Assembly (NCBI GenBank): GCA_017617715.1
Contig: JAFZVQ010000049.1
Location: 1-60,644 of the forward strand
Length of the DNA: 60,644 nucleotides
From: Bacteroidales bacterium
GTDB lineage: Bacteria > Bacteroidota > Bacteroidia > Bacteroidales > UBA932
Direction: 5' to 3'
The position numbers and the translations under genes are program-made. Of this stretch, positions 23,450 to 26,185 are shown piece after piece. How positions within the stretch are numbered: position 1 is the stretch's first letter; every line of letters starts with the position of its first letter. The notes beneath the pieces are model-generated. The model ran no database searches. It was not told the origin of the DNA and saw nothing but the letters and a program-made list of their open reading frames with translations.

Positions 23450-24799
23450 ATGAAATACATGAGGAAGGCTTTATTTATCATTGCTGCGGCATGCCTGTCC
23501 CTGACGGGCCTCGGCCAGACCCGCGACGCATTCGAAGAGATACGCCAGGACCCTGAAAAGGCCGGCACCGTGCACTACATGTACGACCACGACATTCCCG
23601 CCTGCGCAAAGGCTCCAGCAGGATACAAGTCGTTCTATATCAGCCACTACGGCCGCCACGGCGCGCGCAACCACTCCACCGATTCCGACTTCGACCAGCT
23701 CTACACGCTGTTCACGACCGCACATGAGCGGGGCCTGCTCACGGAGCGCGGCGAGGAGTTCCTGCGGCGCTACGCCGACGCCTACAAGGTGCTGCGCGGC
23801 TGCGGCGGCGACCTGTGCGACCGGGGCTTCGAACAGCAGTACAAGATAGCCCGCAACATGTACAAGGCCCACCGGCACATCTTCCGCAAGGGCGCCCGCA
23901 TCAGCGCAGGATCCACCTACGTGCCCCGCTGCATCCTCACCATGTCGGCATTCACGGACGAACTGCTCCGGGAGAATCCCCGGCTCGTCATCGAGAAACA
24001 GGCAAGTTTCTCCGAGATGCCCTGGCTCAACCCTTTTTCAAAGTACAACCCCGACATCCATCCCACGGACGAGGGCTACAACAACAAATACGCTTACTGG
24101 CAGAAGGACTACCAGGCCATGTGCAAGGAGCTGTGCCGGCCGGAGGTAGTGTTCGGACCTCTGCTGAAAGACCTGTCGCTGCTGAAGGAAATCGGCGACC
24201 CGCTTGAACTGGAGGGCGCGCTGTATTCGGTGGCGATGAACGCCCAGTGCAACGGTAAACTGCGGAACGACCTTGTGGAATTCGTGCCCTACGAGGAGCT
24301 CTGCCGCCTCTACGAGTGCCGGAATTTCCGTTTTTACTGCTCCAAGGGAGCCGATACTCTCTACCAGAAAGGCCGCCAGTGGGCCTTTGTCTGGCGCACC
24401 ATGCAGGACATAATCGACAAGGCCGACTCCGACCTCGAGACCGGGGAGTATGCCGCGCGCCTGCGCTTCGGCCACGACATAATCATCATGTCACTCTTCG
24501 TGCTGCTCGATATCGACGGCTTCAACAAGCCCGTCGGGAAGGCCTCGGAGATCAAGGACGTGTTCCGTTCCTACGACTTCCCCATGTCGCTCAACACCCA
24601 GTTCGTGTTCTACAAAAACCGCCGCGGCGATATCCTGGTGCGGCTTCTCTACAACGAGCGTGACCTTGCCCTTCCCATCCCCGACTGCGGCACGCCCTAC
24701 TTCTACCGCTGGTCCGACTTCCGCGACTTCGCCCTCCGCCGCATCGCCCTCGCCCGGCACATCCTCGCCACCACCCAGGCCCCTCCGAAGAAGAAGTAG
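23450..24799 (+). CDS. Secreted histidine acid phosphatase (phytase/MINPP-like)
   Basis: The product has 449 residues. The signal peptide (RKALFIIAAACLSLTGLGQT) marks it as periplasmic or secreted. The phosphate-binding motif of branch 2 histidine phosphatases is present as SHYGRHGARNH (nucleophilic His70, with Arg69 and Arg73). The proton-donor pair is GHDIIIM (His342-Asp343). Family members hydrolyse phosphomonoesters such as phytate or sugar phosphates. Relatives in Bacteroides act on inositol phosphates; the substrate here is not known. ATG codons at 23450 and 23459 both fit; the first is used. A related gene lies at 58617-59846. Two hairpins follow the stop but lack a T-run. Confidence 0.9.
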   Translation: MKYMRKALFIIAAACLSLTGLGQTRDAFEEIRQDPEKAGTVHYMYDHDIPACAKAPAGYKSFYISHYGRHGARNHSTDSDFDQLYTLFTTAHERGLLTERGEEFLRRYADAYKVLRGCGGDLCDRGFEQQYKIARNMYKAHRHIFRKGARISAGSTYVPRCILTMSAFTDELLRENPRLVIEKQASFSEMPWLNPFSKYNPDIHPTDEGYNNKYAYWQKDYQAMCKELCRPEVVFGPLLKDLSLLKEIGDPLELEGALYSVAMNAQCNGKLRNDLVEFVPYEELCRLYECRNFRFYCSKGADTLYQKGRQWAFVWRTMQDIIDKADSDLETGEYAARLRFGHDIIIMSLFVLLDIDGFNKPVGKASEIKDVFRSYDFPMSLNTQFVFYKNRRGDILVRLLYNERDLALPIPDCGTPYFYRWSDFRDFALRRIALARHILATTQAPPKKK

Positions 24800-24815: not shown

Positions 24816-24872
24816 GTTGCTGAATATCAGCAACAACCGATTCTCCATGGCGCGGTTTTACGCCATGGAGAA
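24816..24872 (+). other. Two consecutive hairpins downstream of the histidine phosphatase gene
   Basis: GTTGCTGA and TCAGCAAC (24816-24834, loop ATA) form the first. TTCTCCATGGCG and CGCCATGGAGAA (24841-24872, 8-nt loop) form the second. They are perfect stems but no T-run follows, so they may stabilise the 3' end or act as weak terminators. Confidence 0.5.
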
Positions 24873-24919
24873 TTGTAAACTATTGGGAGGCAGAAGGTTA
24901 CGTTTTACGCCCCCCCACC

Positions 24920-25079
24920 GACATCCGGTCAATAGCGGATGGGATTCGGAGCGAAGCGACAGAGGGGATAGCAGCGTAGCTGCGGAAGGGGAACCTTCCC
25001 CTTCTCCCCTGGGGGTGCAGGGGGATAATGGCTCTACCTTACTGACATCCGGTCAATAGCGGATGTCAGTAAGGTAGAG
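24920..25079. repeat. Duplicated and inverted copies of the truA 3' end around repeat copy 1
   Basis: A 22-nt sequence at 25044-25065, spanning the truA stop, recurs exactly at 24920-24941 on the far side of the 85-nt element. In addition, 25032-25050 is a perfect 19-nt inverted copy of truA's last coding bases (25061-25079), with a 10-nt loop containing the stop codon. The arrangement suggests that target DNA was copied when the element arrived. It could also act as a hairpin at the end of the truA message, although no T-run follows. Confidence 0.85.
24945..25029. repeat. 85-nt structured repeat, copy 1 (truA 3' side)
   Basis: It runs from TTCGGAGCGAAGCGACAG to GGGGGATAAT. It matches copy 2 (25917-26001) at 82 of 85 positions, in the same orientation. 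It contains a GCAGC-GTA-GCTGC stem, a perfect 18-base palindrome AAGGGGAACCTTCCCCTT, and a CCCCT...AGGGG pairing. It has no transposase, so it looks like a MITE or REP-type element. Confidence 0.85.
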
Positions 25080-25895
25080 GGCGGGGGCGGGGGCGGACTC
25101 GCCGGCGAGGGAGCGGCGGGACTCGCGGAGGCCGTCGGAAGCGTCAGGGGGGAGGATAAGGGCGTCGAAATCATGGAGATAGCGGCGGCCGCGCCCGACT
25201 TCCAGCAGCGTGCCGACGATGGCGCGGACCATGTTCCGCAGGAACCTGTCCGCCTCGATCACGAAACGCCAGTAGCTCACCTCATATCCGGGAAGGGCCA
25301 TACCGGACGGACCGGGGACGGGTGCCGGCATTATCAATGGTATGCCGGCGCGGACAAGCGGCTCACAGGGCTCCCAGAAGGCGCGGTAGACGGTGCAGAT
25401 GGAAGTCTTGTTGTCGCCGCCGGACTTCTCGAAACAGGAAAAGTCATGGGTGCCGACAAGGCGGGAGGCGGCCTCATTCATCTTCTCGAAATCGACCTCG
25501 GGATAAGCGAAATAATAGGAACGGCCCTCCAGGAAGGGATCCTTCACACGATGAAGGTAGTAGCAGTACTGCCTCAGACGCGCGTCAAAACGGGCGTGAA
25601 AGTCCGGGGCGGCAGGCGCCACGTTGATGATACACACCGACTTAGGCAGAATCGCGTTGAGCTTGTATCGCAGCTGGGCGCAATCCACCCCAGCGTCGGA
25701 GCAGTCGAAATGGGCCACATAGAAGGTCGCGCTGACTCCGGTGTCGGTGCGCCCGGCGCCGACCACCCCGACCGTCTCCTTCAGCAGCACCCCCAGCGCC
25801 TTCTCCACCTCCTCCTGCACCGTCCTCACCTTCGGCTGGATCTGCCAGCCGAAGAAGTCGGTGCCGTCATATGCCAGGTCAATCCTATATCGCAT
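25053..25895 (-). CDS. truA: tRNA pseudouridine synthase A
   Basis: The product has 280 residues from the ATG at 25895. TruA converts uridines 38-40 of tRNA anticodon arms to pseudouridine. Family motifs are IDLAYDGTDFFGWQIQ at the N-terminus, the catalytic Asp51 in GAGRTDTGVSA, then RLRQYCYYLHR and FLRNMVRAIVGTLLEVGRG. The gene is complete, but both ends are bracketed by the 85-nt repeat. The first 56 coding bases plus 4 upstream bases recur at 26018-26077 in front of it. The apparent native promoter (26081-26110) lies upstream of that duplicate. Translation may now depend on coupling with the decoy frame described at 25885-26073. The last 27 bases, including the stop, take part in a perfect inverted repeat. 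Confidence 0.95.
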   Translation of the reverse strand: MRYRIDLAYDGTDFFGWQIQPKVRTVQEEVEKALGVLLKETVGVVGAGRTDTGVSATFYVAHFDCSDAGVDCAQLRYKLNAILPKSVCIINVAPAAPDFHARFDARLRQYCYYLHRVKDPFLEGRSYYFAYPEVDFEKMNEAASRLVGTHDFSCFEKSGGDNKTSICTVYRAFWEPCEPLVRAGIPLIMPAPVPGPSGMALPGYEVSYWRFVIEADRFLRNMVRAIVGTLLEVGRGRRYLHDFDALILPPDASDGLRESRRSLAGESAPAPALYLTDIRY

Positions 25896-26073
25896 ATCGG
25901 TAAGAAAAAGTTACGGTTCGGAGCGAAGCGACAGAGGGGATAGCTGCGGAGCAGCGGAAGGGGAACCTTCCCCTTCTCCCCTGGGGGTGCAGGGGGATAA
26001 TAGCTTTGATGCAAAGCATCTGCCAGCCGAAGAAGTCGGTGCCGTCATATGCCAGGTCGATTCTATATCGCAT
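25885..26073 (-). pseudogene. Decoy truA 5' fragment fused to repeat-encoded sequence
   Basis: The first 18 codons of truA are duplicated here starting at the ATG at 26073 (MRYRIDLAYDGTDFFGWQ). The frame then runs through the 85-nt repeat (a basic, Pro-rich stretch containing PLHPQGRRGRF) and stops at 25885, 11 nt inside the real truA. It directly follows the predicted native truA promoter. The frame is 62 codons long. It is best read as a by-product of the insertion. Its stop overlapping the truA ATG could allow ribosomes to re-start, making it a functional upstream frame. Confidence 0.7.
25917..26001. repeat. 85-nt structured repeat, copy 2 (truA 5' side)
   Basis: It is identical in length and orientation to copy 1, with three differences. 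Two of these exchange the A and T of one stem pair (GCTGC-GGA-GCAGC here, GCAGC-GTA-GCTGC in copy 1), so the stem is kept; the third is in its loop. It lies between the duplicated truA start and the real truA start, within the 338-nt gap between truA and moxR. Confidence 0.85.
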
Positions 26074-26080
26074 ATCGACA

Positions 26081-26110
26081 CAAAATTAGCAGTTTTTATG
26101 CGGAAAGCAA
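26081..26110 (-). promoter_or_regulatory. truA: Apparent native truA promoter
   Basis: On the minus strand TTG (26108-26110) is followed after 19 nt by TAATTTTG (26081-26088), an exact -7 match. Transcription would start within a few bases of the decoy ATG at 26073, about 180 nt before the real truA ATG. Confidence 0.55.
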
Positions 26111-26115
26111 TAGGG

Positions 26116-26140
26116 ATTCTTCGCTGGCGCTCAGAATGAC
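26116..26140. repeat. Short palindromic repeat (ATTCTTCGC...GCTCAGAATGAC type)
   Basis: ATTCT and AGAAT frame an imperfect palindrome containing TCGCTGGCGCTC. Sequences of this form (attcttcgctt..gctcagaatgaca) are dispersed repeats I recall from many Bacteroidales genomes. It lies in the truA-moxR gap, directly behind the truA promoter. Confidence 0.5.
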
Positions 26141-26185
26141 AACAGACGGAAGCGGGCACATTTTTTGCAATAGTGTCTGCGCGCG

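Follow-up and report, generated by a model that had tools for sequence, protein, structure and literature searches.

A dispersed structured repeat of Bacteroidales often adjoins a palindrome copied from its target on one side and may insert by foldback-primed synthesis

In this work, we examined a 60,644-nt stretch of a Bacteroidales draft genome (contig JAFZVQ010000049.1; hereafter, the window), where the tRNA pseudouridine synthase gene truA is bracketed by two copies of a structured repeat, which we call E. The copies belong to a family dispersed among related genomes. Beside one and the same end of E there often stands a palindrome, one arm of which is the sequence of the neighbouring gene or tRNA and the other its inverted copy. 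The closest relative found carries truA sites without E, the palindrome is missing at strong protein-gene sites whose orthologues are free of E, direct repeats across E recur in the family, and the stems of E covary. The reading that we favour, while giving it slightly less than an even chance, is that a folded-back 3′ end copies the target, switches onto E and rejoins the target nearby.

The E copies flanking truA are 89 nt long, 96% alike and lie in the same orientation (Table 1). This bears out the sequence-only reading of the locus, which had described structured repeats on both sides of truA, each with copied truA sequence: the direct repeats agree at 58 of 60 positions at the 5′ end and at 24 of 25 at the 3′ end, the latter including an exact 22-nt repeat. 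A 21-nt piece of E gave two matches in the window at up to three mismatches and none in 100 shuffles. No Rfam family reached its gathering score anywhere in the window, and the search for inverted pairs of at least 15 nt at the ends of E found none, so that E is without terminal inverted repeats of this length. At the 3′ end of truA, the E copy adjoins a perfect palindrome whose distal arm is the truA coding end and whose E-proximal arm is its reverse complement, with the truA stop codon sitting in the loop. The 61-nt stretch holding this palindrome folds at −38.1 kcal/mol (z = −9.1), and E by itself folds more weakly (z = −1.2 on the + strand and −3.0 on the − strand).

Table 1. Features of the truA locus (positions in the window)
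Feature	Position	Strand	Remarks
E copy downstream of truA	about 24943..25033	-	aligned at 24945-25033; 25033 is roughly the fixed end and 24943 the variable end
E copy upstream of truA	25917..26005	-	
truA (tRNA pseudouridine synthase)	25053..25895	-	intact, 280 aa, PF01416 E = 1.5e-31
25-nt direct repeat, copy beyond E	24917..24941	-	24/25 vs 25041-25065
25-nt direct repeat, truA-proximal copy	25041..25065	-	
60-nt direct repeat, copy opening intact truA	25840..25899	-	58/60 (97%) vs 26018..26077
60-nt direct repeat, shortened truA start beside probable original promoter (TAATTTTG, which we take to be a promoter motif)	26018..26077	-	
Perfect 20-bp palindrome, 8-nt loop	25032..25079	-	E-proximal arm 25032-25051, distal arm 25060-25079
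Natural hairpin GGCTGG-CAGAT-CCAGCC in the GWQIQP codons of truA	25834..25850	-	similar sequence in relatives
Small hairpin GCTTTG-CAT-CAAAGC adjoining the CTATT end of the upstream E	26003..26017	-	
ORF of 62 codons that begins at the old start codon, crosses E and stops over the intact truA start	25885..26073	-	

Two other structures lie nearby. A strong hairpin, ATTCTCCATGGCG...CGCCATGGAGAAT (24838-24876, z = −4.3), is located just past the convergent ORF 23450-24799, for which no Pfam match was obtained at E ≤ 0.001. On the other side, at 26109-26141, there is a different dispersed repeat, GATTCTTCGCTTCGCTCAGAATGACA-like, which is also seen at L015-L018 and recurs between genes at the loci read.

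Searching the genome that contains the window (G000, a draft of 2.3 Mb in 86 contigs) with a 169-nt query returned 19 matches. Nine are E proper, counting the two copies in the window and one that is interrupted by a contig end. Across the genus, E was present in 8 of 61 genomes (E-value ≤ 1e-8) and, with another subtype as the query, in 29 of 400 genomes (≤ 1e-12, two candidates scored per genome). The 22-nt core ATCCCCCTGCACCCCCAGGGGA had 125 matches at no more than one mismatch in 12 genomes chosen for having E, and its reversed control had none. A longer exact match was present in seven records, all of them uncultured Bacteroidales/Bacteroidia metagenome assemblies, one from goat omasum; viral contigs, plasmids and phages gave no match to E. 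An assembly artefact is unlikely, since separate genomes share the same insertions (L006/L113, L024/L025).

Altogether, 136 distinct E copies were parsed from the loci (core with up to two mismatches, copies with identical surroundings merged), and the totals of 133, 126, 121 and 119 used below arise from dropping copies with too little flank. As the copies were gathered via the core motif, their fixed left border is partly built in, and less so in the whole-E search that gave 8 of 61 genomes. Starting from the fixed end, the order is CTAYT, stem 1 (the nearly invariant core), stem 2, in which the subtypes differ, stem 3, a CCCCTSTGTCG stretch, stem 4 and CTCCGA. At the left border (n = 134), CTACT occurs 48 times, CTATT 23 times and CTACC 9 times. 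The consensus fold of 36 aligned copies, selected from the 136 as those of a single subtype that fitted its pattern, has 19 pairs, three of them changed on both sides (covariation): pair 28-47 is CG in 18 copies and GC in 16, and pair 51-65 is UA in 17, CG in 12, AU in 3 and GC in 2. As part of the favoured reading, we tentatively regard E as a small, non-autonomous mobile repeat.

E may also stand within reading frames. In G023 and G047, an ORF remains open through E; its ATP synthase A chain domain was identified by a scan of the copy in G047. The codon score puts the gene start after E, and the translation of E is putative. At five loci of the window's genome (L013, L016, L017, L018, L019), the E core lies inside a longer repeat (about 200-250 nt) whose inverted ends resemble GCCGGAGGAGAGGTTGC; this repeat looks like a MITE, and E may be nested there in another repeat. 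At contig ends of the same genome (C60:1-209, loci L004 and L005, and C14:1-40, locus L009), a terminator of about 42 nt alternates with E, and a tRNA-like stretch stands beside the array at C14:1-40; contigs C60 and C14 may join at this array.

The signature most often seen at E is one that the sequence-only reading did not contain, namely an inverted, one-sided copy of the target, which is commoner than the direct repeats. The palindrome adjoins the CTAYT end of E, the far arm being host sequence and the near arm its inverted copy. Among 133 copies, 68 had a best stem of score 12 or more in the 90 nt before the core, as did 2 of 408 random windows; at ORF ends without E (ORFs of at least 200 codons, same loci), such stems were found in 4 of 279 cases. 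With both flanks of 119 copies scored, this level was reached by 62 on the left and by 3 on the right, and a hairpin of at least 6 bp ended 2-12 nt before the core in 108/119 copies (control, 56/238). For the 76 strong stems measured, the median distance from the stem end to ATCCCC was 11 nt; 50 of 133 copies had no stem of score 10 or higher.

The palindromes draw on both protein genes and tRNAs. As judged by gene calls with a home-made codon-usage score, the 77 strong stems fall into those directly preceded by a tRNA (23), those with the distal arm in the 3′ end of a sense gene (21), those lying in apparent gene read-through of E (17), those at antisense 5′ ends (3) and intergenic ones (13). 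The read-through cases comprise 7 sense and 10 antisense copies among the strong stems, and 6 sense and 12 antisense copies among the weak ones (n = 44). Within 848 kb of the window's genome and of its relative G263, a sample in which many stretches had been picked for holding E, 18 palindromes scored at least 14, and 9 of these abut one of 21 E cores. Inspected by eye in this sample, all four tRNAs with E show an inverted copy of their own 3′ end, and eight tRNAs without E show no such copy beyond 2-3 nt. Two palindromes of G263 with 28-29-nt arms and similar loops (C14:72 and C2 near 130.7 kb) do not adjoin E and probably belong to another repeat family.

Sites with and without E were then compared between species, with one genome per species. 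The closest relative found, G263, gave the best truA DNA match among 400 genomes, and its truA is free of E at either end: the start is preceded by the gene's own upstream region, and the 3′ end runs into the convergent gene. The view that E is a repeat inserted at both ends of truA is thus upheld by two E-free sites. The palindrome score at the truA 3′ end is 20 in the window vs. 6 in G263. Nine E flanks of G263 were joined into one query, eight of which could be located in the window's genome; together with L183/L016, this made nine comparisons. At four protein-gene sites, the score with E vs. that of the orthologue lacking E there was 14 vs. 7 (L182), 14 vs. 5 (L183), 14 vs. 5 (L186) and 16 vs. 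5 (L187), so that at all five strong protein-gene sites, the truA 3′ end included, the palindrome is present only where E is. In L016, the orthologue of L183, a longer repeat with an E core lies elsewhere in the same gap. The weak sites carry little information (L184, 9 vs. 6; L185, 7 vs. 5; L159, 6 vs. 6, where both genomes have E close by). The tRNA sites differ: at the tRNA-Thr site L168 (23 vs. 18), a terminator of score 18 is already in place in the orthologue without E, and the palindrome is an ordinary terminator lengthened by a few nucleotides into the tRNA; at the tRNA site L181 (21 with E vs. 15), a palindrome is likewise present in the orthologue without E.

In the window's genome, two palindromes stand without E, one at a tRNA-Pro end (L247, score 15) and the other at the gene end C5:3233, whose orthologues in G011 and G027 carry E; palindromes can therefore precede or outlive E. 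This last gene end has a palindrome in all three genomes (C5:3233, L041 in G011 and L042 in G027) despite the differing sequence, and hence the copy arm followed the changes in the coding arm.

These E-free palindromes are what one would expect if E were a hairpin-seeking element that lands beside palindromes already in place. Such an element would also suit the truA 5′ insertions of the window's genome and of G048, both of which break at the natural hairpin in the GWQ codons, and the small excess of palindromes with a coding arm in E-bearing genomes: those of score 12 or higher with one arm in a CDS end make up 2 of 15 in the window's genome and 3 of 24 in G263 (E adjoins three of the five), vs. 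0 of 17 and 2 of 21 in two comparison genomes, of which 390 and 400 kb were covered and contained no E core. This comparison (5/39 vs. 2/38) does not discriminate. The lack of a palindrome in the E-free orthologues at the five strong protein-gene sites argues against hairpin seeking, which we consider quite unlikely.

Alternatively, E might insert in some other way, and its hairpin array might stall replication, with template switching later building or repairing palindromes at one flank. Template switching is described as both making and maintaining perfect hairpins (PMC8794818). The palindrome arms stay complementary in spite of divergence between species (L006 vs. L113), and the stems of E itself covary, both of which agree with a stalling array. 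The inverted copy, however, keeps close to the fixed end of E (median 11 nt, n = 76) and not to the other end, and it was present at four of four sampled tRNAs with E. We regard later palindrome building as unlikely, though it deserves more weight than hairpin seeking.

Direct repeats across E are a less frequent feature. The proposal to search the core and see whether flanking duplications recur in relatives was borne out: the left/right repeat score was at least 14 in 20 of 126 copies vs. 4 of 600 mismatched pairs, with lengths of 16-81 nt. Several of these 20 repeats hold or adjoin a second E (e.g., L004, L113, L178, L031, L207, L217), and in L224, L155 and L037 the right-hand match is at least 165 nt away from the core start. 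A second, truncated E comes after the arm in L113, L183, L207 and L031, and here tandem duplication could be an alternative source of the repeat. Of the two routes suggested earlier for the truA locus, template switching fits best, whereas a long target-site duplication does not hold as a general rule, given that 106 of 126 copies have no repeat at this score, the lengths vary and several cases are tandem E arrays. The comparison with IS-derived MITEs made at that time was of no help, since E lacks terminal inverted repeats of at least 15 nt. Excision or amplification of truA between its two E copies was not seen either, with a single truA match in this genome, a draft assembly that could hide further copies.

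At the 5′ end of truA, the duplication begins at 25840, that is, at the loop edge of the GGCTGG-CAGAT-CCAGCC hairpin. G048 shows this arrangement at the identical codon, the repeat there being 59 nt long and the E of a different subtype; among 54 distinct truA starts, only these two have the duplication with E. From the old start codon, each of the two genomes has a reading frame that continues across E and stops on top of the intact truA start or a short distance ahead of it. The TruA protein of G048 is 57.8% identical to that of the window and that of G263 80.0%. As the closer G263 is without the insertion and the E subtypes differ, two separate insertions are favoured over shared ancestry with G048, with repeated loss as a possible but less favoured alternative. 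An insertion at codon 19 without a repeat would break truA, and it is probably through selection that a long repeat is seen here.

Taken together, these observations are tentatively best accommodated by the foldback reading named at the outset. At a short natural hairpin, a free 3′ end of the DNA would fold back on itself and be extended by about 10-30 nt, thereby giving a perfect palindrome of the target sequence. Synthesis would then switch onto an E template at the fixed end CTAYT-ATCCCCCTGCACCCCCAGGGGA, copy E as far as the variable end and rejoin the target; rejoining upstream of the starting point would leave a direct repeat, such as the 25 nt at the truA 3′ end and the 60 nt at the 5′ end. 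Such a course would account for the palindrome being one-sided and having perfect arms, for the border, and for the variability of both the far end and the direct repeats. Palindrome and insertion would thus come from one event, with foldback priming and template switching as its presumed steps. The priming end is presumably DNA, in line with the lack of sense bias inside genes. Weighing against this reading are the 50 of 133 copies that lack a stem of score 10 or higher, the palindromes that stand without E, the terminator already found at the E-free orthologue of L168 and the coding-arm comparison. Priming by transcripts, as the tRNAs suggested (24 sense, none antisense and none on the right among 121 copies), was rejected, for the copies inside genes run in either sense; the tRNA pattern is accounted for by geometry and by tolerance at gene ends. 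A bolder proposition, which we hold possible but rather doubtful, is that E represents a hitherto undescribed class of mobile DNA in bacteria: it would insert by foldback-primed synthesis and rebuild its terminal hairpin from the target at each landing, and the end of E would be partly made from the host's own DNA.

Candidate enzymes were also considered. If E were a retroelement, a reverse transcriptase would jump from the folded-back 3′ end onto E RNA, which would suit the fixed start, the variable far end and the tandem copies of E. We find this highly improbable: the lack of sense bias inside genes speaks against it, as does the occurrence of RVT_1 in 4 of 10 E-rich vs. 5 of 14 other genomes, a comparison in which absence is weakened by the 76-92% completeness of the E-rich drafts.

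A REP-like element moved by a Y1 transposase (RAYT) seems improbable as well. REPs are palindromes with a GTAG tag that are tied to RAYT genes (PMC3733652, PMC2817692), and CTAC beside a hairpin, as in E, is the complement of this tag (PMC3733652). Y1 genes occur in 9 of 10 E-rich genomes and in 7 of 14 others. When genomes were drawn evenly, however, Y1 genes were found in 7 of 8 that were positive for one E subtype vs. 39 of 53 negative ones, the negatives being scored for one subtype, so that others may be present, as in G048. Furthermore, of the 35 Y1 matches in E-rich genomes, a single one is found less than or equal to 1500 nt away from an E core, with 0.6 expected, and the hairpin beside E is host sequence. 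No RAYT gene flanked by inverted E copies was seen, none of the 20 matches scanned out of 53 listed having the core. Neither reverse transcriptase nor Y1 genes clearly track E. At L207, a locus fetched for its E, a Y1 gene has E about 160 nt away on one side only. Many genomes of the genus have several divergent Y1 (PF01797) genes, mostly of about 290-370 codons; the loci scanned around them (L228-L246) contain no E core.

We also clustered 388 ORFs around E copies and viewed the 25 largest clusters by eye for shared neighbours. One four-member cluster (L142, L173, L179, L202) is PF12784, the PD-(D/E)XK nuclease family transposase. PDDEXK_2 is found in 10 of 10 E-rich vs. 9 of 14 other genomes, and in the E-rich genomes, 4 of 35 matches lie within 1500 nt of an E core, with 0.6 expected; since this post hoc test was made after the cluster had been seen, the proximity is a lead only, and PDDEXK_2 nuclease genes are a weak lead as the mover of E. 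The PF12784 family is abundant in several genomes both with and without E (L345-L374).

Several known systems share features with E. Rolling-hairpin replication is primed by a foldback 3′ end, as would be the case for E, where the foldback is a putative one and concerns the insertion of a chromosomal repeat. Palindromic elements of Rickettsia are repeats tolerated inside protein genes, the palindrome being the element itself; E too occurs inside protein genes, and the sequences are unrelated. E resembles REP/BIME sequences as a small repeat mostly downstream of genes and sometimes inside them, with covarying hairpins and GTAG/CTAC at the hairpin foot (PMC2817692, PMC3733652). In contrast to these, the hairpin beside the CTAY border of E is host-derived, a copy of target sequence. 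E also has additional hairpins within its own sequence and does not flank the Y1 genes examined. With template-switch mutations (PMC8794818), E shares a new, perfect reverse-complement copy of adjacent sequence, made there in one step, whereas at E the copy accompanies a specific dispersed element with a fixed border. Perfect inverted repeats overlapping coding sequence are likewise known from nematomorph mitochondria, where the available portion of the account has no dispersed element at the palindromes (PMC6649704). The Porphyromonas gingivalis MITE is a small non-autonomous repeat like E (PMC4596501); E has neither terminal inverted repeats nor a short target duplication of fixed length. 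A literature search of open-licence PMC papers gave no recognised description of the present arrangement, and the available parts of PMC3733652, PMC2817692 and PMC8794818 describe no dispersed element with a target-derived palindrome.

If the favoured reading is true, small mobile repeats are able to spread while acquiring, at every new site, a palindrome copied from the sequence there, which would join template-switch mutation to transposition. This would provide a route for genes and tRNAs to gain long 3′ hairpins and for proteins to gain extra segments, and the origin of dispersed hairpin repeats in this group of bacteria would become testable.
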